Shown in pieces: positions 9,563-25,077 of a stretch of DNA of 25,077 nt (its first letter is position 1; each line of letters starts with the position of its first letter). The DNA lies in IMG/VR virus record IMGVR_UViG_3300028581_001775, positions 1-25,077 of that record, one strand, 5' to 3'. The notes beneath the pieces were generated by a model. The model was not told the origin of the DNA. It saw only the letters and a list, made by a program, of their open reading frames with translations, and searched no databases. Both the position numbers and the translations under genes were made by a program. This DNA is from a virus.

Positions 9563-12121
9563 TTAATTATAAGCTAGTGTCCAACCTTTACTAATTAAAT
9601 TGGTTCTAGCTGTTAATGAAGAATTTGTAACAGACGAATTACCCGTGCCACTTGTATCAATATCACCATTTATTTTACCATTTGTATCTAAAATATTAAA
9701 TAATACATCCACATTATTAACACTTAATGATGTTTCCAAACTATTATTTTTCAAATGTAAATCATTGAGGTAAATTAATCCATTAATATCTATTTCAGAT
9801 AACATGTTGTCATTCAAATTTAGAGTAATTAAATTTTTAAGTTTTGAAACATCAACTTTAAAAATAACATTATTGGCAGCGAAAACATAATATATGTATT
9901 GTAAATCACCCGAAAATGTAATAGTTAAAAATTGATCAGCCATATAAAGGTGTGTAATTCCGGTACGAACACCATTAAAACTTACTGTTTCTAAAGATGT
10001 ACCATCACCCCAATCAATTGTTAAGGTTGTTAAATTTGAACTAATTATATTCATTAAAAAATTCCCATTTGTCATTTTTGTTAAGAATTTAAATGAATCA
10101 TAAGATGTACTTCCGGTTGTCGAACCACTTGTCACACCAGTTAATAAATCATATGTTAATTGTAAATTTTCGTTTAATATAGGAATTGGAATTTTTGTGT
10201 GTTTATCTATTCCAATTTCTATTAATTCTATTGGTTTATAAATCAAATCTGGATCATAGGTAAATGTAATATTATTACCATTATTATATAAGTTTTCAGG
10301 ATTATATAATTCAAGAATGAATTTATTTTTATCATCTTGTGTTAATAATGCCGTTGTATATTTTGTAATATTTGGATCGTTTTCTATTATTCTAGAATAT
10401 GAATTACAAATTTCTTTTCTTATATTGTCAGGCCTTACTCTATACCAACTATTTTCATCGTTCTTATACACCGAATATAAAAGATCAGAAATTCCAGTTA
10501 AAGTATAAATTGTATCTATATTTGTTATTGTTAAACCGGAATTAGATTTATATGTTTCAATAGTAAAATATTCGTTTTGAACATAATCAACAATTAGAGT
10601 TTTATATGTTCCATTTAAATTTACAAAAGTATTCTTTTTGAAAAAATAAATATCCGATGGATTCGTTGGTGTTATTTTAATATATGTTCCTTTTGGATAA
10701 CTATTATAATATTCTGAACTTTGTGTATCTGTAACAAGAACTGTAAAACCGGTTGTAAAGTTTACTAAACTAGAATTTGGATAATTTGGAAATGAATAAG
10801 AACTATTAAAAACAGAATTGATATCTTTTAAATGTTCATATAGTTTATATTTGATATAATAATTTGATGTATTAAAACCTATATATGTTGTACCACCATC
10901 AAAAGAAAATTGTAATCCATCATAATCAAAATAATGATTATATTTATAATATTTAGGAATTAATTCCGTTCCACCAGATATTTCGAAATATTTCGAATAA
11001 TATGAATCTAATAATGTATCATTTAAATTTGAAGTAAATTGCAAATTTGTTATTGTATAAGTTCCACCACTTATATAATAATCATGTAGAACATTTGATG
11101 GAATTGGATCCTTTAATATTAAAGTTGGTGATGTTGTATTATCTTTAATTGCATATGTATAATAAACAAGATTAATATTAGAATTGGTTAATTCTATTTT
11201 TAAATAATCTCCATCTGTTGTTGAAGAATAAAAAGAACCATCTGTAACTATCAAAAATGTTTCCTTTATACCACCGGGCATTACTGTAATTCCGGTATAT
11301 ATGGTTGTATCTGAAATTGATGAACCATTATAAATTAAATCACTACCAACATTAATAGTATAAACCTGATTATCATGATATTTAATTTTGGCAACACTTG
11401 TTGATGGAATTGTGAAACCGGTATACAATGAATAATTTTCTGGGTTTATGTGTCTTGCAACATCATAATCTGTAAAAATTAATTTTGGAACAGGTGTTAC
11501 AGCATTAATATCATAACTAAAGAAATGTTTGATTATATAGGTATGACCCAACATATATTCAGCTAAAGTCCCAGATATTGGGAAATAATCACCACTATTT
11601 TTTAGATGATATTGATTGTGTTTATTATCACCCAATTTAACATAACCTTTGTATCTAAATGTATTTCCACTATCAGCGAGTTGTGATGATCTGATTAAAA
11701 AACCTCTTTGATCAACCTTATATAAATCATTTTGAGTTTTATCATTTTGATTTACAAGTAAAATTTTATGATTTGTTTTTAAATTGACATTATCTATTTT
11801 ATAAAACCTTTGTGTCAAATCTAAATTGGATGTACTACAAACATCAACGGTATCCATATTTACCATAAAATTATTTATAATATCAAATTCGTTGTACATG
11901 TCGTAAATACACCATGTTTTCCCAACCATTGAGTTTTTATTATAAATATCAGTTAAAGTATTTACATATTGATAAGTAATACCAGATAAACATTTTTTAT
12001 ATTTAAAATAATTATCAGGAACGTAAGTGACCCCACTCCAATATGTGTCCAATCTTTCAATTCTCGTCCAAGTTGTACCTGTCAGAACCCAATCATATTT
12101 GAGATTCCATAAATCTTCCAT
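9563..12121 (-). CDS. Large structural protein with PKD-like and leucine-rich C-terminal region
   Basis: An 852-residue protein, first gene of the minus-strand fibre operon. The N-terminus (MEDLWNLKYDWVLTGTTWTRIERLDTYWSG) is tryptophan-rich; the central region has many Y/N/T/G-rich strands (for example FTIPSTSVAKIKYHDN, LQFSFDGGTTYIGF) as in tail-associated beta proteins. The last ~150 residues include a PKD-like signature TIDWGDGTS followed by leucine-rich repeats (KLKNLITLNLNDNMLSEIDINGLIYLNDLHLKNNSL). Such PKD/LRR modules commonly mediate surface binding. No signal peptide. An exact promoter box is 25 nt upstream. I call it a baseplate or tail-fibre component by composition and by the next gene; no T4 homologue is recognised. 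Confidence 0.7.
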   Translation of the reverse strand: MEDLWNLKYDWVLTGTTWTRIERLDTYWSGVTYVPDNYFKYKKCLSGITYQYVNTLTDIYNKNSMVGKTWCIYDMYNEFDIINNFMVNMDTVDVCSTSNLDLTQRFYKIDNVNLKTNHKILLVNQNDKTQNDLYKVDQRGFLIRSSQLADSGNTFRYKGYVKLGDNKHNQYHLKNSGDYFPISGTLAEYMLGHTYIIKHFFSYDINAVTPVPKLIFTDYDVARHINPENYSLYTGFTIPSTSVAKIKYHDNQVYTINVGSDLIYNGSSISDTTIYTGITVMPGGIKETFLIVTDGSFYSSTTDGDYLKIELTNSNINLVYYTYAIKDNTTSPTLILKDPIPSNVLHDYYISGGTYTITNLQFTSNLNDTLLDSYYSKYFEISGGTELIPKYYKYNHYFDYDGLQFSFDGGTTYIGFNTSNYYIKYKLYEHLKDINSVFNSSYSFPNYPNSSLVNFTTGFTVLVTDTQSSEYYNSYPKGTYIKITPTNPSDIYFFKKNTFVNLNGTYKTLIVDYVQNEYFTIETYKSNSGLTITNIDTIYTLTGISDLLYSVYKNDENSWYRVRPDNIRKEICNSYSRIIENDPNITKYTTALLTQDDKNKFILELYNPENLYNNGNNITFTYDPDLIYKPIELIEIGIDKHTKIPIPILNENLQLTYDLLTGVTSGSTTGSTSYDSFKFLTKMTNGNFLMNIISSNLTTLTIDWGDGTSLETVSFNGVRTGITHLYMADQFLTITFSGDLQYIYYVFAANNVIFKVDVSKLKNLITLNLNDNMLSEIDINGLIYLNDLHLKNNSLETSLSVNNVDVLFNILDTNGKINGDIDTSGTGNSSVTNSSLTARTNLISKGWTLAYN

Positions 12122-12302: not shown

Positions 12303-13412
12303 ATGATAGAAAATGTCTTAAATCAGAACGAACTGTCTGGATTTTATATAGTATACAATAATGTAGTTGCAAATGAAACAGACGGCACTTATGGTTTATC
12401 ACATCTAATAGAACATTTAATATGTAAAAATCTAAAAGATGAATTTGTAGAAAAATTAGAGAATAATGGAATAATCTGGAATGCTTATACAACTCCAAAC
12501 AATATAGTTTTTTATATCAGAGGATTAGATGATTATGTTTTCAAATTTAAAGACGAATTTTATAATATTGTATCTAATTTTGATGTAACGGAACAAAGTT
12601 TACAATCAGAAAAAAAGATTGTATTGGATGAATATACTGATTTATTTAACCGTTATAATAAAAACCACTATTTAAATTTATACAGAAAATTATTTAATAA
12701 TTACAACTCAATAGGAAGAAGATCCGACATTGAAAATATTACTTTGGATAAATGTTATTCACATTATCACAATTATTACAATAATCCTTATAAGATAATA
12801 TACATATCGAAAAAATATCAACATGAAACAGATATTAAATTTGGTGGTAATGATATAATTAAGGGATTTAATTATATACCAAATAATAATGCGTATACTT
12901 TAGAAAGTCCAATTTCATCTAAAAATAAATCATCTGTGATCTATATTTCACCGGTTGTTAATGATGATTTTGATAAAATAATATTTATCAACTATCTATT
13001 ATCTGGTGGCTTAAAATCACCATTATATAAGAATTTAAGGGAAAAAGAAAATTTAACATATTATATCAATTGTAGAATAGATAGACTTCAAAATACAGGA
13101 ATCGTTTTAATATCAACAGAAACGAATGATTATAATATAGAAAAATTACACGAAACTGTGGTAAACGTTTTTAATGACAGAAGTTATTTGAACAAAGAAA
13201 AGTTTAATACCATAAAAAACTTCATTAAGATAAATAATCTAAAATCAAATATTAATCTACAAGATAATGAAGATAAATTTATTTTACCACAAAATTGGCT
13301 TATTGAAAATACCATTGATTCAATAACATATGATGATATTGTGGAAACATTTGATAAATATTTCAACATTGAAAAATTTTATAAAAGTGTCGATAAGACT
13401 GAATTTTATTAA
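12303..13412 (+). CDS. M16-family (pitrilysin-like) zinc metallopeptidase
   Basis: A 369-residue protein with the inverted zinc motif HxxEH at H34-L-I-E37-H38 in GLSHLIEHLICK, and the distal glutamate expected ~70-77 residues later (E110 in SEKKIVLDEYTD, the equivalent of the family's ER-xVxxE segment). The C-terminal half has the family's second signature, LREKENLTYYINCRIDRLQNTGIVLISTET (residues ~245-275). M16 enzymes are clamshell proteases, often of two such halves; this copy is near the short end (families are usually over 400 residues) and its N-terminal strand before HxxEH is short. All visible catalytic residues are intact. No signal peptide, so it should act in the host cytoplasm or in the virion. 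It has its own promoter box. Its substrate is unknown. Confidence 0.85.
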   Translation: MIENVLNQNELSGFYIVYNNVVANETDGTYGLSHLIEHLICKNLKDEFVEKLENNGIIWNAYTTPNNIVFYIRGLDDYVFKFKDEFYNIVSNFDVTEQSLQSEKKIVLDEYTDLFNRYNKNHYLNLYRKLFNNYNSIGRRSDIENITLDKCYSHYHNYYNNPYKIIYISKKYQHETDIKFGGNDIIKGFNYIPNNNAYTLESPISSKNKSSVIYISPVVNDDFDKIIFINYLLSGGLKSPLYKNLREKENLTYYINCRIDRLQNTGIVLISTETNDYNIEKLHETVVNVFNDRSYLNKEKFNTIKNFIKINNLKSNINLQDNEDKFILPQNWLIENTIDSITYDDIVETFDKYFNIEKFYKSVDKTEFY

Positions 13413-13740: not shown

Positions 13741-13797
13741 ATGAAGAAATTTATTTATACATTTGTTAATCCCGAGGAATCTAAAAATGGGATATAA
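13741..13797 (+). CDS. Possible 18-residue leader peptide overlapping the IF-3 start
   Basis: ATG at 13741 opens MKKFIYTFVNPEESKNGI and stops with TAA at 13795-13797, just inside the IF-3 gene in another frame. Its codons contain the GAGGAA that lies ~8 nt before the IF-3 ATG. This would couple IF-3 translation to the leader. It is small and could be chance. Confidence 0.3.
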   Translation: MKKFIYTFVNPEESKNGI

Positions 13798-14341
13798 AAA
13801 CAATTTTTCAATGAACAACAGAAACAACGAAAAGACAGAAAGAATAAACAATCAGATTAATTCTCAAACTATTAGACTTGTTTTTACCGATGGAACACCA
13901 TCTTATGTAACCCCTTTAAGGGATGCTATATTATTATCCAGAGAAAAGGGTTTAGATTTAATTGAAATATCTAAAAACGGTGATCAATCCGTTTGTAAAC
14001 TAATGGATTACAACAAGTTTTTATACGAAAAGAAACAAAAAGAGAAAGAAAATCAGAAAAACAATAAGAAATGTAAATTAAAAGAAATCCGTATGACATA
14101 TAATACGGGTGATCACGATTTCAATTTCAAATTGAATCACGCTATTAACTTCTTAAAAGATGGTGATAAAGTTAAAGTTTTCATCTTTTTTGCTGGTCGT
14201 GAAATCAATTTCAAATCACAAGGGGAACTTCTACTTCTCAAATTTATAGACAATCTAAAAGAATTAGGTAAGGTAGAAAACATGCCAAAATTAGATGGTA
14301 ACAGATTGTGGGTTATATTGTCACCAAAGAAAGCTATATAA
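13787..14341 (+). CDS. infC: Translation initiation factor IF-3, phage-encoded
   Basis: A complete two-domain IF-3. From ATG 13787 it has 184 residues; the N-domain carries RINNQINSQTIRLVFTDGTPSYVTPLRDAILLSREKGLDLIEIS and VCKLMDYNKFLYEKKQKEKE (residues ~19-88), the lysine-rich linker follows, and the C-domain has LKEIRMTYNTGDHDFNFKLNHAINFLKDGDKVKVFIFFAGREI (98-140) and a terminal LWVILSPKK. IF-3 binds the 30S subunit, prevents 50S joining and proofreads start codon and initiator tRNA. The frame can be extended to a TTG at 13763, but the ATG preceded by GAGGA fits better, a rare Shine-Dalgarno-like site in this window. It lies between a 53-residue protein and an unknown gene. A phage copy could redirect ribosomes to phage messages. 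Confidence 0.95.
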   Translation: MGYKNNFSMNNRNNEKTERINNQINSQTIRLVFTDGTPSYVTPLRDAILLSREKGLDLIEISKNGDQSVCKLMDYNKFLYEKKQKEKENQKNNKKCKLKEIRMTYNTGDHDFNFKLNHAINFLKDGDKVKVFIFFAGREINFKSQGELLLLKFIDNLKELGKVENMPKLDGNRLWVILSPKKAI

Positions 14342-16839: not shown

Positions 16840-17292
16840 ATGAAAACTTACGAACAATTTGTAAACGGTGAATATGAATTAAAATACGAAAAATGGCCAT
16901 GGGAAGGTTATTCCGAAGGTCATGATTCTTGGATTTTATATAAAGAAGGGAAGGCTATAACTGGAATGTCAAATGATAGTGATGATAAAAATAATGTATC
17001 TATTAGAAAAATTGAATCGCACACCGATGAAAAAGGGATTGCAACAAAATTGTTATTTATGTTACTTGATCAGGGTGTTGTTGTTACAACTGGTAAACCA
17101 AATTACAATTCAACAACAGAAAAAGGATATTATTGGAAAAAATCTGTAGTTGAAAAGATTAAAAATAGTGGAGGTAAATACGAATATGAAATTATAGGTA
17201 AAAGTGTTTCAAGAGACGATGACCCATCTTTTATTAATATAAAGGATAAAGATGATAATTATCATTATACTTTCAGAAAAAATAATCCATAA
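16840..17292 (+). CDS. GNAT-like protein with capsid-targeting-like N-terminus (MKTYEQFVNGE)
   Basis: A 150-residue protein. The first 11 residues, MKTYEQFVNGE, closely resemble the T4 internal-protein capsid-targeting peptide (MKTYQEFIAE). The body has a fold pattern reminiscent of GNAT acetyltransferases: SWILYKEGKAITGM, then VSIRKIESHTDEKGIATKLLFMLLDQ (the KGIATKLL stretch is like the acetyl-CoA loop), then VVTTGKPNYNSTTEKGYYWKK. GNAT assignment is tentative because the loop is not a strict Q/R-x-x-G-x-G/A. If correct it would be an enzyme delivered with the virion. The promoter box is almost adjacent to the ATG. It ends just before the GH16 gene and probably shares its transcript. Confidence 0.65.
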   Translation: MKTYEQFVNGEYELKYEKWPWEGYSEGHDSWILYKEGKAITGMSNDSDDKNNVSIRKIESHTDEKGIATKLLFMLLDQGVVVTTGKPNYNSTTEKGYYWKKSVVEKIKNSGGKYEYEIIGKSVSRDDDPSFINIKDKDDNYHYTFRKNNP

Positions 17293-17296
17293 TATT

Positions 17297-18247
17297 ATGT
17301 GTAATTTATTTTACAATATGAGTTTTGGAACATGGTTAACCAACGGATGGTACTATGTTCGTTTTTATTTTAAATCTTGGTTTACAAATTATTTCAAAAA
17401 AGAACACAATAATTCACCTGATAAATTAGGATATACAATGGTTTATGCTGACGAATTTGAACAACCTATTGATTGGAATACTTGGAGATGGTGTGAAGAA
17501 TGGGGATGTGAAAGAGATATGGTGATTTTTAAACAAGAACAAGTTACACAATCCGGAAGTGACGCTGTACTAACATCAGATTTAAATAATGTACCAGATG
17601 AACCACTTGTTAAATCCGGTGGTCTTTATACTTGGAATTTCTTTAATACCAAATACGGTTATTTTGAAACAAGAGAAAAGTTAGCACCGGGTGGACTTAA
17701 ATATTGGCCAGCTTTCTGGTTAAGTTCTTCTGATAGTTGGCCACCGGAAATTGATGTTTTTGAATTAATGGGAAGTGATAGTTCTTATTTCACAATGACT
17801 TTACATTGGAGAAATACTTGGAAAAATGCAAAAGAAATTCAAAAAATATATGATCAAATATATCAAGTATATGGTTATGTTGCAACAGATTTTGATGATA
17901 CTTGTAAATATCTTCAACAAGAACCTTGGGAACAACAAAAAACCGATTTCATAATTGCTTTACAAGCTCAAACACCAATAGAAATGAAAGGTAGAAGATT
18001 GAAATTCTGTCAAAAAGATTTCTTATCAAAAGATTATCATATTTATGCTTGTGAGTGGACAGAAGATAAAGTAGTATGGTATATTGATAATATTGCTGTT
18101 TATAAATTGGATAAACATATTCCAAGTAGAAATATGTTATCATTGATAACTTTTAACTATACTTATGATAAAGAATATGGACCAAATCCAGATGATGTAC
18201 CAATGAGTATGTATTGTGATTATTTTAGAGCATATAAAAAGAAATAA
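17297..18247 (+). CDS. Glycoside hydrolase family 16-like enzyme (endo-beta-glucanase type)
   Basis: The protein carries the GH16 catalytic signature ExDxxE as EIDVFE (E151, D153, E156 counted from the ATG at 17297), in the family context YGYFETREKLAPGGLKYWPAFWLSS upstream and ACEWTEDKVVWYIDN downstream. GH16 enzymes cut beta-1,3/1,4 linkages in laminarin, agar, carrageenan and related polymers. I start at ATG 17297 because AAAAATAATCCATAATATT matches the leader pattern of other genes here; ATG 17318 is possible, and an ATG at 17252 lies inside the previous gene. The aromatic N-terminus (WLTNGWYYVRFYFKSWFTNYF) is not a signal peptide. About 316 residues, a single catalytic domain. In a phage it probably degrades host capsule or biofilm polysaccharide. 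No fibre-attachment module is seen. Confidence 0.85.
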   Translation: MCNLFYNMSFGTWLTNGWYYVRFYFKSWFTNYFKKEHNNSPDKLGYTMVYADEFEQPIDWNTWRWCEEWGCERDMVIFKQEQVTQSGSDAVLTSDLNNVPDEPLVKSGGLYTWNFFNTKYGYFETREKLAPGGLKYWPAFWLSSSDSWPPEIDVFELMGSDSSYFTMTLHWRNTWKNAKEIQKIYDQIYQVYGYVATDFDDTCKYLQQEPWEQQKTDFIIALQAQTPIEMKGRRLKFCQKDFLSKDYHIYACEWTEDKVVWYIDNIAVYKLDKHIPSRNMLSLITFNYTYDKEYGPNPDDVPMSMYCDYFRAYKKK

Positions 18248-18608: not shown

Positions 18609-20498
18609 TTAAATTTGTTTCTTAATAGTTTTCAATAATTGGGTTTTATTAAATGGTTTAAATATAAAATCATCCGCTCCCATTTCGAATGCTTTACTCC
18701 TATATTCGGATACCGTATATGCTGATTGAATAATAACCTTTATATCTTTATTATAATCCTTTATATCTTTCAATATATCATAACCACTTATATCAGATAA
18801 TCCCAAATCCAATAAAACCACATCAATTTTTTTACTTTTTATTATATCCATTACACCCAATCTAAAACTTGTAAAAACTTTAGCATTGACAGACATCATA
18901 TGTAATTTTAATACTTTGTTTATTTCTATATTATCTTCAACAATAAGTATTTTGAGATCTGTGAAATCAAATTTTTGTTCCTCTTCAGATTCTTCAAATA
19001 TTTGAATTTCAGTATCATCCTTAAATATAAAACCGGTTTCAAAATAAAAACGACTTCCGACACCAATTTCAGATTCTAATTTTATATCCCCAAAACCCAT
19101 CAAACTTACAAGAGATTTTGAAATAGCTAATCCTAAACCATAACCTCTATTATTTTTGCTTATTCCCGGTTGACTTATTTGGATAAATCTATCAAACAAT
19201 CTTGGTTTATTCTCTTCGGAAATTCCACAACCAGTATCTTTGACATATATCTGTAATTTGTTATTACATAACATTTTATATCCAAATTTTATATATCCTT
19301 TTTTGGTAAATTTAATAGCATTTCCGATTAAATTCATCATTATCTGTTTTAATCTATATTTATCAGCAAGAATAAAAACGTTACTATTTATATCAATATC
19401 AATATTTAATTTAATTTTTGATGTTGTTTTTTTCATTTGTTTAGAATATTGAATCTTGAGATCTTGAAAAAATTTGTTTAAATCTATTTCAGATTTTTGT
19501 ACTTTCATCATCTCTGAATCTATTTTTGATATGTCAATAATATCGTTTATAAGATTTGTCAAAATATCACCATTTTTCATTATTATATCTAAATATTCCA
19601 ATCTTTGTTCTTTTGTAACACCATTATCTTTTAATAATTCAGAAAATCCTATAATACTGTTTATTGGTGTTCTTAAATCGTGACTCATATTAGCTAAAAA
19701 GGCTATTTTCATTTGTTCTGATTTTTCAGCTCTTTCTTTTTGTTTAAGTAGTTCATATTCATGTATTTTACGTTCCGTAATATCTAATCCAAATGATATT
19801 ATTCCTATAACTTCATTATTTTCTATAACTTCATTATTTTGCCATAAAATATATTTAATTTCACCATGTTTGGTTATTATAGAATTTTCAAATTCATTAC
19901 TTGACTTTGCATCAGTTAATAAAACACCAAATACCTTTTTAACTTTATCGAGTTCATCTTTTGGTAAAATATTAGTTTCTGTAAACCAATTTTTACCAAT
20001 AATTTCATTTTTACTATAACTAGTTAATTTTTCAGCTGCATTATTGAATATATTTACATTTCCATTTTTATCAAGTCCAACAATCATGACATTCGCGGTA
20101 TTTAAAAGGTTTTCCGCAAATTCTTTTGAATTTAAAAGATTTCTTCTTGTATTTGTTTCATTAGTAATATCTCTTACAATAACAACAACTTCATTATCAT
20201 TATTTTTAACCGTCCTAGAATAATAATGTCTATCACTATTTTTGAATTTTATGGAATATGAATATTCTATTGATTCTCCGGTTTTTATAACTTCTTTTAT
20301 AATACTTTTAAACTCTTTAATAACATTATCACCAAATGGGAGATCTTCAATTTTAGAATTTATATAAATTAAAGATTGTCCATGTTCAGAAAATATACCT
20401 TCACCCGGTTTTATATCTATTATATGTCCATCTGAATCAATTCTGGCAATCATATCAGGTATCACTTCTAATAATGATTTATAATTTTCTATTGTCAT
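18609..20498 (-). CDS. Cytoplasmic hybrid histidine kinase (PAS-PAS-HisKA-HATPase-REC)
   Basis: A 629-residue complete hybrid kinase. PAS domain 1 covers ~1-115 (LLEVIPDMIARIDSDGHII ... VVIVRDIT), PAS domain 2 ~125-243 (LLNTANVMIVGLDKNGNVNIFNNAAEKLTSYS ... ISFGLDITERK). The dimerisation domain has H273 in FLANMSHDLRTPINSIIGFSELL. The ATPase has N-box N393 (MMNLIGNAIKFTKKG), D421-G-x-G (VKDTGCGI), and G452-Y-G-L-G (GLAISKSL). A C-terminal receiver (~515-629) has E521, D522, the phosphorylatable D564 in VLLDLGLSDISGYD, S592 and K614. No membrane segments or signal peptide: a soluble sensor. All phosphotransfer residues are intact. Histidine kinases are rare in phages. No partner regulator or phosphotransfer protein is in the window. 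TATATATAG near 20521 may drive it in the reverse direction. Confidence 0.9.
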   Translation of the reverse strand: MTIENYKSLLEVIPDMIARIDSDGHIIDIKPGEGIFSEHGQSLIYINSKIEDLPFGDNVIKEFKSIIKEVIKTGESIEYSYSIKFKNSDRHYYSRTVKNNDNEVVVIVRDITNETNTRRNLLNSKEFAENLLNTANVMIVGLDKNGNVNIFNNAAEKLTSYSKNEIIGKNWFTETNILPKDELDKVKKVFGVLLTDAKSSNEFENSIITKHGEIKYILWQNNEVIENNEVIGIISFGLDITERKIHEYELLKQKERAEKSEQMKIAFLANMSHDLRTPINSIIGFSELLKDNGVTKEQRLEYLDIIMKNGDILTNLINDIIDISKIDSEMMKVQKSEIDLNKFFQDLKIQYSKQMKKTTSKIKLNIDIDINSNVFILADKYRLKQIMMNLIGNAIKFTKKGYIKFGYKMLCNNKLQIYVKDTGCGISEENKPRLFDRFIQISQPGISKNNRGYGLGLAISKSLVSLMGFGDIKLESEIGVGSRFYFETGFIFKDDTEIQIFEESEEEQKFDFTDLKILIVEDNIEINKVLKLHMMSVNAKVFTSFRLGVMDIIKSKKIDVVLLDLGLSDISGYDILKDIKDYNKDIKVIIQSAYTVSEYRSKAFEMGADDFIFKPFNKTQLLKTIKKQI

Positions 20499-21796: not shown

Positions 21797-22768
21797 ATGA
21801 CCAACCCATATACCAACCCGTACGATTCATACAACAACATGACAGATGTTGCTTTTATACCTAAGTATAATTGGACATTAAATGAAAGAAATATAATTAC
21901 AGAAGCACAACTTAATGATGATTTGGTTCCGGGGTTTCCTATTAACAAACTATTGAAATTTACACCACAAATGGAAAATAAATTGGAACCATTGTTAATT
22001 AAAGCGATTCAGTATGGAATGGCGTTAACAATTAGTTATAGGGGTGATAAAGATAAATGGCGTGGTGGTCGTATCAGAACAATATACCCAATGGCACTTG
22101 GTATTAATGCAAACACAAAAAATAAACTTCTTAGAACCTTTCATGTCGAAGGTTGGTCTGTTCATAAGAAAAAAGAAGTTAATGACGAATGGAGATTAAT
22201 GAAAACGGTAAATATTTTATCTATTATGTTTACTGGGAATTTTTATCGTATGGCACCTGCTGGTTATCGTTTGAATGATAGAGTTATGACAGAAAGAATG
22301 ATTTGTCAAGCTGATTTTTCTACAATTAGAAGAAATCAACAATCATTATTAAATGAAGGTAAAATTGAACAAGTTGTAGAAAGACAAGATAAAAAATTAC
22401 AAGCTCTTAACCTTAACAGATCTTTGGATTTGAAAAAACCATTCGAAGGTTTCGAAAAGAAAGATATTGATAAAATAGAAATAACAGTTTTGAAATCGAT
22501 ATTAACAAAATCTGAAAACAATTATATTGCAATTGTTGGTGTTAGAGGTATTAGAAATCATAGAGTTAGAGTATTCACAAAAGAAAGTGGTGGATCAAGA
22601 GAGTTGGGTAATTATATGGTTGTTAGATACTTAACAAAGAGTCCAAACAATCCGACATTTTTAATAGAAACATCAGTACAAGCTCAAGACCAAGTTGAAA
22701 GACCGTGTACAATGATTGATGGTAAAGCTGAATTTCCGATGTTTAAATTTGAAGGTTTTATAAGATGA
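21797..22768 (+). CDS. Unknown 323-residue protein, possibly WYL/SH3-like
   Basis: A protein with two beta-rich parts joined by a helical middle. Residues ~64-120 (LLIKAIQYGMALTISYRGDKDKWRGGRIRTIYPMALGI ... LLRTFHVEGWSV) resemble a WYL-type ligand-binding domain (A-I-x-x-x-x-x-L-x-I-x-Y-x-G, then R-x-I-x-P and a following strand). The C-terminal part (IAIVGVRGIRNHRVRVFTKESGGSRELGNYMVVRYL) is also strand-rich. The N-terminus is Asn/Tyr-rich (MTNPYTNPYDSYNNMTD). The resemblance is weak, so I give no function. It ends in ATGA, with its stop overlapping the start of the next gene at 22765, implying translational coupling with the CTS-bearing protein. Confidence 0.6.
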   Translation: MTNPYTNPYDSYNNMTDVAFIPKYNWTLNERNIITEAQLNDDLVPGFPINKLLKFTPQMENKLEPLLIKAIQYGMALTISYRGDKDKWRGGRIRTIYPMALGINANTKNKLLRTFHVEGWSVHKKKEVNDEWRLMKTVNILSIMFTGNFYRMAPAGYRLNDRVMTERMICQADFSTIRRNQQSLLNEGKIEQVVERQDKKLQALNLNRSLDLKKPFEGFEKKDIDKIEITVLKSILTKSENNYIAIVGVRGIRNHRVRVFTKESGGSRELGNYMVVRYLTKSPNNPTFLIETSVQAQDQVERPCTMIDGKAEFPMFKFEGFIR

Positions 22769-23076
22769 AAACATTCGAAAAATTTATTAATGAATCTAAA
22801 AATTTTAATTTATATCATTGGGTTAGTACAAATAAAATGATTGAAATTATAAATGATAATACTTTATATGCTAAATTCAAACATACTATAAACAATAAAG
22901 AGATTTATGGTAATTCATTATCAAGAAATAAAAAATTAAAAATTAATTATTCATATATTAGATTAACATTAGATCAAGAAAAATTAAATAATAATTACAA
23001 AATTATACCTTTAGATGGCGAAATTATTCATAGACGAATAAATATAACAGATGATTATGAACTACTACTACACTAA
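22765..23076 (+). pseudogene. 5' part of an interrupted ADP-ribosyltransferase-like gene with capsid-targeting-like N-terminus
   Basis: As it stands the frame reads 103 residues, the last six (ELLLH and neighbours) coming from the inserted 416-bp element. True gene sequence ends at 23056. It starts MKTFEKFINE, the best match here to the T4 capsid-targeting peptide including the I-x-E cleavage site. The body reads NLYHWVSTNKMIEIINDN ... SLSRNKK ... SYIRLTLDQEKLNNNYKIIPLDGE, which together with the 3' fragment (DEEFLIGDIKNINKYIKEILI) resembles ADP-ribosyltransferase-like phage proteins (H/Y...S-x-S-R...E-E). Removal of the insertion (23057-23472) rejoins both parts in frame as a 177-residue protein. 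It overlaps the previous gene by ATGA. The enzyme class is tentative; the interruption is seen directly. Confidence 0.7.
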
Positions 23077-23088
23077 AGATGTAGTAGT
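23064..23088 (-). repeat. Right-end hairpin, copy A
   Basis: On the minus strand CTACTACA TCTTTAG TGTAGTAG, the tip of the 416-bp element. It shares loop and closing pairs with copies B and C but differs in the outer stem with compensating changes. Confidence 0.75.
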
Positions 23089-23089
23089 T

Positions 23090-23440
23090 TCGGGATCAAA
23101 AATGATCCTTCTTTTTAAACGCTTCATAGCTTATGCCACAAGTGGTCTTATTTTTGCTCCACGTTCGTAATCGTCAGTTCCTGACGATCGGTCTTAAAAA
23201 AACCGATAATGTTGTTTATTGTTTTTGCATTGGCACATCCTGTCTTTCAAGGGTAGGCATAGCAGCATCGTTTTAACGATGTTAAAATTAAAGTCATTAA
23301 TGCTTGGTTTTCGCTGACTACTTTTTTATGATTTTACCTAGATTAATAAGTTGTTAATCTAGAACCATATAATCATTACATCAAAGAACTATTTAAAACT
23401 ATTTCTAGTTAAATGTATATATTAATTTAAAAATATCATT
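23090..23440 (-). ncRNA. Putative omega-RNA-like transcript of the 416-bp element
   Basis: The element has no open frame of note but many stems and a promoter-type box at 23424-23416 pointing to its right end, giving a predicted RNA of roughly 350 nt. The stem CGTCA-GGAAC-TGACG (23172-23186) aligns with CCGAT-GGAAT-GTCGG in the tnpB gene (24924-24938): all five pairs differ or swap compatibly and the loop is GGAAY in both. The following GAACGTGGAG is identical. RNA read through the right end would carry host-gene sequence AATCATCTGTTATATT as its guide. Transcription is inferred. Confidence 0.5.
23416..23424 (-). promoter_or_regulatory. TAATATATA promoter motif inside the 416-bp element
   Basis: Exact motif, directed away from the element's left end and toward its RNA-like region; this shows adaptation to, or capture of, the phage's transcription signal. 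Confidence 0.5.
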
Positions 23441-23472
23441 TTTTGTCAAATTCATTTGACGGGTCATTATAA

Positions 23473-23714
23473 ATAAATATAGAGATAGAAATCCCAAAAA
23501 AAGAAATGTTTTTGGTGATCAACCAATATCTAAAAATTTTGATGAAGATAGATTTGATGAAGAATTTTTAATTGGTGATATAAAAAATATCAATAAATAT
23601 ATAAAAGAAATTTTAATTATTAAACCAGAATGGTATTCAGAAGATTTTGATTTGAAACTAATTAATAAAATTAAAGAATATTGTAATTTCAACAATATTT
23701 TATTTTTAAAATGA
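23473..23714 (+). pseudogene. 3' part of the interrupted ADP-ribosyltransferase-like gene
   Basis: In the frame of the 5' part (292 + 242 nt = 178 codons) it reads YKYRDRNPKKRNVFGDQP ... DEDRFDEEFLIGDIKNINKYIKEILI ... CNFNNILFLK and stops at TGA 23712-23714. DEEFLIGDI with the following I-x-x-Y-I-x-x-I is the C-terminal glutamate motif expected of the family. Codon use and AT content match the 5' part. There is no start codon of its own, so it is not expected to be made alone. Confidence 0.7.
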
Positions 23715-23726
23715 ATCTCAAAAGAA

Positions 23727-23753
23727 ATCTACGACATCTTTAGTGTCGTAGAT
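23727..23753 (+). repeat. Hairpin copy B after the interrupted gene
   Basis: ATCTACGACA TCTTTAG TGTCGTAGAT, a perfect 10-bp stem with the same 7-nt loop and closing ACA/TGT as the right-end hairpins A and C. Same orientation as C. It could be the left boundary of the tnpB element, a solo right end of an earlier copy, or a terminator of the broken gene; no U-run follows. Confidence 0.65.
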
Positions 23754-23792
23754 GAATTTTGATGAAAATGGAGAAAAAGGACTTTAATTATT

Positions 23793-23801
23793 TAATATAT
23801 A
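23793..23801 (+). promoter_or_regulatory. TAATATATA promoter motif for tnpB
   Basis: Exact motif in TTTAATATATAGAATT, 48 nt before the tnpB ATG at 23850. Confidence 0.5.
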
Positions 23802-23849
23802 GAATTATCTGAAATTCAAAATAAAATGTTGATAGTCAGAATATTCTAA

Positions 23850-25034
23850 ATGTTAAAGGCTTTTAAATATCGTTTATATCCGGATAATGATCAGAAAGAA
23901 TTGTTGGAAAAACATTTTGGTTCCGTCCGTTTCATATATAATCTAGCTTTAGAAACAAAAATGAACGCTTACAAAGGAAATAAAATAAATTTATCCAGAT
24001 TTGATTTACAGAAACAAGTGGTAGATTTGAAAGAAGATTGTTCATGGTTGAAGGAAGTGAACAGTCAATCACTACAATCATCATTATTAAATTTGGATAA
24101 TGCTTATAAAAAATTTTTCCAGACGAAACATTGTTTTCCAAAATTCAAAAAGAAATCACATAAAAACTCTTTTTCTGTTCCACAGTCAGTCGTGATTTCA
24201 GGTAATGAACTGTTCATCCCTAAATTCAAATCAGGAATTAAAATGGTAGTTGATAGGAAATATAAAGGAACAATCAAAAGTGCAACTATTTCAAAAACTG
24301 TCACCGGAAAGTATCATGTAAGTATTTTATGTGAAACCGGTGAAATGATACCAGAAAAGAAACCTATAAATCCGGAAACAACCATTGGAATAGATTTGGG
24401 TATTAAAAATTTTTTGGTTTTTTCCGATGGTAGAAAAATCAGTAATTCCAATTTTTTTAAAAACAAATTGGATTTTCTGAAAATTCTACAAAGGAAATTA
24501 TCAAAACAAAATATAAAAAGTAATAGGTATAATAAAACAAAACAAAGAATTGGTTTGCATCATGAACATATCACCAACCAACGTCAAGACTTCTTACATA
24601 AACTATCTACCGAGATAACCAATCAGTACGATACAATATGTCTTGAAGATTTAAACGTCAAGGGAATGATTAAAAACCATAAACTGGCACAATCAATACA
24701 GGATGTGTCATGGAGTGAATTCATACGAATGATCAATTACAAATCAGAAAGGAAAGGGAAAAACGTAGTTCAAATTCCACGTTTCTATCCATCATCAAAG
24801 ACTTGTAGTTCATGTGGTTACATATATAAAGAATTAACTCTTGATGTTCGTGAATGGATTTGTCCGGTTTGTGGTGAAAAACATGATCGTGATGAAAACG
24901 CAGCAAAAAATATAAAAAAATGGCCGATGGAATGTCGGTTATTGAACGTGGAGGCCGGCTCTGTGGACGACCGTTTCATTTCGATGAAACCTAAGAAGCA
25001 TCTTGTTTGTGAAACGTTAAAAAAGACGGGTTGA
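23850..25034 (+). CDS. tnpB: TnpB RNA-guided nuclease of IS200/IS605 type
   Basis: A complete 394-residue TnpB. N-terminus MLKAFKYRLYPDNDQKELLEKHFGSVRFIYNLAL is the usual start. RuvC motifs: D182 in TTIGIDLGIKNFLV, E266 in TICLEDLNVKGM, and D346/D348 in HDRDENAAKNI. A zinc ribbon lies between RuvC II and III (C319-x-x-C322 ... C338-x-x-C341). The C-terminal NVEAGSVDDR ... KKH motif is the typical tail and is encoded within the probable omega-RNA. TnpB cuts DNA next to a target-adjacent motif using the RNA made from its own 3' end, and helps retain the element at the donor site. No tnpA transposase is in the window, so movement would need one in trans. All catalytic residues are present. Confidence 0.95.
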   Translation: MLKAFKYRLYPDNDQKELLEKHFGSVRFIYNLALETKMNAYKGNKINLSRFDLQKQVVDLKEDCSWLKEVNSQSLQSSLLNLDNAYKKFFQTKHCFPKFKKKSHKNSFSVPQSVVISGNELFIPKFKSGIKMVVDRKYKGTIKSATISKTVTGKYHVSILCETGEMIPEKKPINPETTIGIDLGIKNFLVFSDGRKISNSNFFKNKLDFLKILQRKLSKQNIKSNRYNKTKQRIGLHHEHITNQRQDFLHKLSTEITNQYDTICLEDLNVKGMIKNHKLAQSIQDVSWSEFIRMINYKSERKGKNVVQIPRFYPSSKTCSSCGYIYKELTLDVREWICPVCGEKHDRDENAAKNIKKWPMECRLLNVEAGSVDDRFISMKPKKHLVCETLKKTG

Positions 25035-25077
25035 AAGACCTAGAAACCACTACATCTTTAGTGTAGTGGTAGTTCAT
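24915..25077 (+). ncRNA. Probable omega-RNA region at the 3' end of tnpB
   Basis: The last ~120 nt of tnpB and 43 nt beyond have stems CCGAT-GGAAT-GTCGG, GTTTCAT-TTCG-ATGAAAC and the right-end hairpin, plus the GAACGTGGAG core shared with the 416-bp element. The guide would start just past 25077, outside the window. The 5' boundary is not known. Confidence 0.6.
25046..25070 (+). repeat. Right-end hairpin of the tnpB element, copy C
   Basis: ACCACTACA TCTTTAG TGTAGTGGT (9-bp stem), then AGTTCAT at the window edge, the same tip (TAGTTCAT) as copy A. It marks the right end of the tnpB element. Confidence 0.75.

Follow-up and report, generated by a model that had tools for sequence, protein, structure and literature searches.

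The last part of a 25,077-nt stretch of viral DNA (IMG/VR record IMGVR_UViG_3300028581_001775, here called the window) holds a tnpB gene and, beside it, a short IS605-like unit that has no protein gene. What such a unit makes and which nuclease would use its product are the questions raised by this locus. An earlier note had proposed that the unit, placed at 23057-23472 on the minus strand, is a non-autonomous element which keeps only the RNA part, and it had taken further copies and significant covariation as its criteria. Both were found in our analysis and the proposal is supported in this respect.

A mobile unit without a protein gene

A copy of the element was found in another viral contig (L058), where it is 97.5% identical to the window element over 400 nt and lies between unrelated flanks. 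The unit is therefore mobile and its ends are fixed by this comparison, together with the common ends of other copies: the element opens with AATGACCCG directly after TTTAT and closes with AGTTCAT. It thus covers 412 nt on the minus strand (23057-23468), four bases short of the end first given, with the TTTAT of the left flank at 23469-23473. Among open frames that reach the core motif the longest has 25 codons, and hence no protein gene is present, as had been claimed for this strand. Element and flanks are identical in a second record (L064), so the window copy did not arise through misassembly of a single contig. The near-terminal palindromes are related to those of IS605-type elements, neither inverted terminal repeats nor a target duplication was observed, the short target motif TTTAT is fixed at every readable left flank of the RNA-only elements, and one unit occurs at different sites (window and L058). 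Judged by these features, which are those of PATEs, the 412-nt unit is a non-autonomous transposon of the IS200/IS605 family and is PATE-like.

A blastn search with the window element and the L196 element against 50,697 phage records returned no match. Rfam gave nothing at the gathering threshold in the window, HEARO included, and a sensitive scan of 22700-25077 gave only chance microRNA matches. A reading as an IStron with a group I intron was rejected, since 22700-25077 gave no group I match at E<5.

The right-end hairpin CTACTACATCTTTAGTGTAGTAG (23065-23087, minus strand), after which the element closes with TAGTTCAT, is common to tnpB right ends and the other elements. The core GAACGTGGAG and this hairpin are nearly identical to those of the neighbouring tnpB (79% over 70 nt, with the hairpin and the TTCAT end in both), which agrees with the earlier note. 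The left end was described there as a hairpin too, and this part needs correction. Pairwise alignment with L058 shows a clean 29-nt gap in the window copy, where the hairpin ACTACGACATCTTTAGTGTCGTAG between the GTCAAA and TTTGAC arms is gone; what remains at 23445-23460 (minus strand) are the outer arms in the form GTCAAA-TGAA-TTTGAC, the leftover of the deletion. The true hairpin is intact in L058 and is also present in L069, L183, L196 and L241. Since the window copy is without it, active excision of this copy is doubtful. It can probably no longer be excised, and its RNA is intact.

Ends-only elements of 39-68 bp were also observed in viral contigs (L059 8256-8305, L063 near 11663, L070 near 9306 and L072 near 11950). 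They consist of TTTAT, one hairpin and AGTTCAT with no scaffold, and a CCGTCAAAG stretch is found in L059 and L063.

Insertion site and predicted guide

When the flanks are joined, the sequence reads as an insertion between two overlapping phage ORFs which separates the second from its start codon. The upstream ORF (22765-23056, plus strand) would then end in ...DDYK-stop, and the body of the downstream ORF (23469-23714, plus strand, 83 aa) would regain its severed ATG at 23051-23053. No homologue was found for either ORF. The predicted guide AATCATCTGTTATATT consists of 16 nt of flank (23041-23056, minus strand) and is placed by its position at the right end, as in the reRNA of ISDra2, which ends in ~16 nt of flank and requires the left-flank motif for cutting (PMC8612924). 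The claim that this guide matches the joined flanks beside TTTAT is correct by reading; such a match is inherent to every IS605-type insertion and is not a special one. Searches for an empty allele by protein, by local joined-flank alignment and by exact junction returned self-matches only. In ISDra2, cutting of the excised site was proposed to restore the transposon (PMC8612924), and by analogy with this known TnpB behaviour (PMC8612924, PMC10278001) retention through cutting of the empty allele is plausible here. The mobilising enzyme is assumed to be a Y1 transposase, TnpA, acting in trans. TnpA (PF01797) was not found in 14 records of the set or in 6 further huge phages, a search limited to these phage sequences, among which the contigs are fragments.

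The 3' third of the element is a TnpB guide-RNA scaffold

The region 23057-23190 (minus strand) was assigned to a scaffold that we call type A. It is made up of a stem (CGTCAGGAACTGACG), GATTACGAACGTGGAG, a AAATAAGACC hairpin, a GGATC/GATCC stem and the right-end hairpin. The predicted transcript, from 23408 to 23057, folds with z = -4.5 and none of 100 shuffles folded as well. Our alignment of 17 sequences, six from RNA-only elements and eleven from tnpB elements, shows pairing in 94% of cells and compensatory changes in 17 of 25 pairs, counts that lean towards structure as the structure was derived from the same sequences. The covariation score was 0.53; shuffles gave 0.16, and sliding the partner gave no more than 0.09. 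When the RNA-only copies are taken alone, pairing holds in 96.5% of cells and 7 of 20 pairs show compensatory change, with sliding controls again much lower; because these copies have no reading frame, coding cannot explain their covariation. A series of stems had been proposed from the window alone, and the folding together with these pairs and those of the 5' domain (4-5 of 11 compensatory) bears this out. By its conserved structure, which ends at the right end of the element, the 3' third of the element is a TnpB guide-RNA scaffold.

These covarying stems are relevant to a less favourable view of the element, in which RNA-only elements are decaying deletion derivatives of tnpB elements that are moved by TnpA, with the RNA unused and the scaffold kept through its overlap with the right end. 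PATEs formed by core deletion are known (PMC3119063, PMC7290912), the ends-only elements of 39-68 bp have the same ends, and the left-end hairpin of the window copy is gone. Against such decay, stems as far as 130 nt inward from the right end still pair by compensatory change in copies without a frame, and the 5' RNA domain, which is absent from all tnpB elements, is conserved, shows covariation of its own and comes with a promoter motif. The ends-only elements also suggest that the scaffold is unnecessary for mobility. We regard decay as quite unlikely.

A conserved 5' RNA domain behind a phage promoter motif

A phage promoter-like motif, ATTAATATATA, is located at 23416-23426 (minus strand) and the same motif precedes the RNA in L058, L183 and L196. 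Sequences with at most one mismatch to TTTAATATATA occur 25 times in the window where 10.4 are expected, and 0 of 100 shuffles reached 25. For most exact or near copies a phage ORF begins 6-63 nt downstream, and one copy is found at 23791 (plus strand), 5' of tnpB. The phage-type promoter of the earlier note thus stands as a motif. The other RNA-only elements mostly have looser variants of it. In L253 the RNA directly follows a phage ORF and has neither left end nor promoter motif.

The domain itself (model R1; 23318-23391, minus strand) consists of GTTCTTTGAtgt followed by a covarying stem-loop, and its covariance-model matches were observed solely in RNA-only elements. All cells of the structure are paired (100%) and 4-5 of 11 pairs are compensatory, the lower stem being drawable in two ways. 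Some members were found with a pattern that includes TTCTTTGAT, so the conservation of those bases is biased in them; the bias does not touch L060, L069, L076 or the pair formed by L058 and the window, and it is slight in L253, a member that came from the model. R1 matched in 10 of 36 viral records. In 84 loci, mostly tnpB-bearing and 604,599 bases in total, the matches were confined to RNA-only elements. No counterpart of the domain was found in Rfam, and six huge phages that were searched are without it. Neither the pattern in bacterial genomes nor R1 in 297 Bacteroidota genomes gave a hit, results of little weight as these searches had no positive control. A separate pattern, GATTACGAACGTGGA, was rejected since its 72 stretches were mostly unrelated coding sequence.

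The domain opens with an invariant GTTCTTTGA, at a distance of about 20-40 nt from the promoter motif on its 3' side. In the window, GTTCTTTGATGT (23378-23389, minus strand), whose first nine nucleotides are invariant, is similar, in sequence only, to the boxA-like GTTCTTTGACAT from a 16S-23S spacer of Bacteroidota (L290/L294). The domain may be thought of as a boxA-type antitermination leader that would carry the polymerase along the untranslated RNA and past the right-end hairpin into the guide, in the manner of rRNA leaders and of some leaders of CRISPR arrays, a role that is compatible with the explanation we prefer below. This is consistent with the position of GTTCTTTGA behind the promoter motif, with the presence of GTTCTTTGACATATTGG about 110 nt before the 23S gene in one Bacteroidota spacer, and with the prediction that huge phages of the Mahaphage clade infect Bacteroidetes (PMC12607003); boxA upstream of CRISPR arrays is reported as well (Stringer et al., cited in PMC7862264). 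On the other side, the exact 16-nt boxA-like pattern occurs in 4 of 41 Bacteroidota genomes and beside rRNA in one of them, the other three having no rRNA nearby, the host is unproven, and the conserved stem-loop is not part of boxA. We consider the leader role unlikely on present comparisons; as a lead, a boxA-like leader would suit a long untranslated RNA.

In L146 (10700-11081, minus strand) the 5' domain is followed by scaffold-like sequence in which no right end can be recognised, and this copy may be fixed and domesticated.

One 5' domain on three scaffold types

About a dozen RNA-only relatives were found (L058, two in L060, L069, the L076/L196 contig, L183, L241, L253 and the end of L057). 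The L076/L196 contig has two copies with the full 5' domain and one truncated copy of type C. Type A scaffolds occur in the window, L058, L060, L069, L076 and L196 and are 75-85% identical to the scaffolds of the clade A TnpBs L065, L067 and L077. Type B scaffolds (L183, L241 and L253) are 70-80% identical to the tnpB scaffolds of L257, L262, L062 and L066, and type C scaffolds (the end of L057 and L076 at ~11634-11845, where the 5' domain is truncated) are 73-78% identical to L043. Among full-length members, TnpB identity is 69-84% within clade A, 72-80% within clade B and 42-48% between A and B; the L043 and L065 TnpBs are partial.

The 5' domain of the window, which sits on a type A scaffold, is 87% identical to that of L241 with a type B scaffold, compared with 65-74% to the other type A elements, a range that leaves out L058 as a copy of the same element. 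This pattern, seen in a domain of only ~73 nt, suggests that the 5' domain and the scaffold have different histories, for which module exchange is the best explanation. The earlier note had recognised the RNA-only character correctly, but neither the 5' domain that the elements have in common nor the swapping of scaffold types was noticed there.

Several further arrangements were observed in these contigs. Two records, 3300028299_000003 (L076/L196) and 3300028299_000132 (L057/L068), each carry several RNA-only copies, which differ in scaffold type, and two tnpB genes. An RNA-only element in L183 (1-391) abuts, and probably lies inside, a tnpB fragment. A long phage ORF in L075 ends with a piece of type A scaffold (626-729) that has neither a left nor a right end.

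The neighbouring TnpB

The tnpB gene (23850-25034, plus strand) encodes 394 aa with the Pfam domains OrfB_IS605 and Cas12f1-like_TNB and matches the TnpB structures 8bf8 and 8h1j. Its RuvC residues GIDLG (180), EDLN (266) and DRDENA (346) and a C..C zinc ribbon are intact. PADLOC named it Cas12f-like, which was not taken as membership, TnpB and Cas12f being homologous. The gene lies in an element of its own (23710-25077, plus strand), which is preceded by TTTAA at 23705-23709 and has a left-end hairpin at 23729-23751 and TTCAT at the contig end, 25077. This element is also mobile, as L047 has it with its left end in other flanks and L061 and L072-L074 carry its right end elsewhere.

It had been suggested that this TnpB could load the RNA in trans. 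The two elements are close and have the right-end hairpin, the TTCAT end and the promoter motif in common, the same divergent layout is found in the L076 contig with an RNA-only element ~400 bp from tnpB, and the 3' hairpin is the sole consistent scaffold feature among divergent TnpBs (PMC10278001). However, the window RNA-only scaffold shares 61% identity with the neighbour's and 77-81% with those of clade A (L065, L067 and L077). As a set, type A scaffolds are 60-66% identical to the neighbour's scaffold, where the middle hairpin is built differently. The left flanks differ likewise, with TTTAA at both known left ends of the neighbour element and TTTAT at the RNA-only elements; TTTAT also precedes the clade A/B tnpB elements L067, L013 and L254. 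Clade A TnpBs are 49-52% identical to the neighbour, and the window TnpB is 49-56% identical to all A, B and C TnpBs compared. Both TnpBs of the L076 contig are of type B, including the one beside the type A RNA, and two RNA-only copies there are of type A. The scaffold identity and the left flanks weaken the claim of loading by this TnpB and leave the identification of the RNA as a guide unaffected; because of them the neighbour is a possible partner but not the likeliest one, and it is unlikely to be the natural partner of this RNA. No clade A TnpB is encoded on the window contig, these contigs being fragments.

Phage context

The T4-type portal of the window is 71% identical to the portal of the 735-kb phage LR756501 and 46-49% identical to those of 634- to 642-kb phages, and the window is therefore a fragment of a huge phage. 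The phage probably belongs to the Mahaphage clade, an assignment drawn from the portal match and genome size. LR756501, the closest long relative, has neither the 5' domain nor TnpB. Other genes seen in the window encode a translation initiation factor IF-3 with both domains (13763-14341, plus strand), a hybrid sensor kinase that combines PAS domains, HisKA, HATPase and a response regulator in one protein (18609-20498, minus strand), a glycosyl hydrolase family 16 protein (17252-18247, plus strand) and an M16-type peptidase (12303-13412, plus strand).

Proposed mode of action

The analysis brings together mobile ends of the IS605 kind, a promoter motif, a 5' domain specific to RNA-only elements and a scaffold that, by its compensatory changes, is kept without a reading frame. 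We consider it rather likely that the element is a PATE-like transposon of huge phages whose sole product is a structured RNA of ~350 nt plus guide, served by a TnpB in trans. Transcription from the phage promoter would run across the right end and on into the flanking DNA. A clade A TnpB, encoded at another place in the phage or by a co-infecting phage and most likely not the one at 23850, would trim the RNA, as TnpB trims its own mRNA (PMC10278001), and load it in trans. The loaded complex would cut TTTAT-flanked copies of the site that are without the element, and repair would then copy the element back or into the empty allele, with mobility supplied by TnpA in trans. Because this 5' domain is also joined, in related elements, to scaffolds that belong to other TnpB clades, the scaffold appears to have been exchanged, and the element may follow whichever TnpB is present. 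A bolder form of this reading, which we hold tentatively and at somewhat less than even chances, is that these are mobile guide-RNA satellites in which a constant 5' module, perhaps an antitermination leader, is recombined onto scaffolds of different TnpB clades, the protein-free element thereby parasitising both the transposase and any RNA-guided nuclease that happens to be present.

The RNA could instead be a domesticated regulator, with TnpB or an inactive relative repressing a phage or host gene rather than cutting the empty allele. The broken left end means that the window copy may be fixed, and L253, which continues from a phage ORF with no left end or promoter motif, would fit. The intact catalytic residues of TnpB, the presence of both ends in most relatives and their different guides make domestication highly improbable.

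Relation to known elements and implications

HEARO/IscB omegaRNA elements are IS200/IS605-linked structured RNAs that carry guides. Unlike HEARO, the phage scaffold matches TnpB clades and has no Rfam HEARO match. Guide-only copies may reportedly also have been described for Geobacillus IS605 elements by Meers et al. in 2023.

PATEs of Haloquadratum and Halanaerobium are likewise free of transposase, with IS605-type near-terminal palindromes and no target duplication, and a Halanaerobium PATE retains the last 58 nt of tnpB with the right end, according to the available parts of these papers (PMC3119063, PMC7290912), which propose no guide-RNA role. Unlike PATEs, the phage elements have a promoter motif of phage type, and across three scaffold types they share a 5' RNA domain whose origin is not in tnpB. 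The reRNA or omegaRNA of the ISDra2 TnpB (PMC8612924; PMC10278001) similarly has a right-end scaffold, a subterminal 3' hairpin, a guide from the flank and a left-flank motif, but it comes from the tnpB transcript in cis, whereas the phage element is without tnpB and has a separate RNA domain as its 5' part. ORF-less IStrons (PMC4227781) are also linked to IS605, have lost their protein genes and have kept a functional RNA; theirs is a group I intron, whereas the phage element matches neither group I nor another Rfam family. The kind of element is thus known from PATEs and ORF-less IStrons, and the shared 5' domain with three exchanged scaffolds in viral contigs appears to be new as far as the literature searched shows.

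Protein-free IS605 elements have been known, and what differs here is that the RNA itself appears to be kept and exchanged, with one front module on the scaffolds of three TnpB clades. If it works in the proposed way, a guide would be separated from its nuclease and act in trans without CRISPR, a step that is assumed for the origin of type V systems from TnpB. These elements would then also provide a natural set of stand-alone guide RNAs for testing scaffold specificity and trans loading of TnpB.
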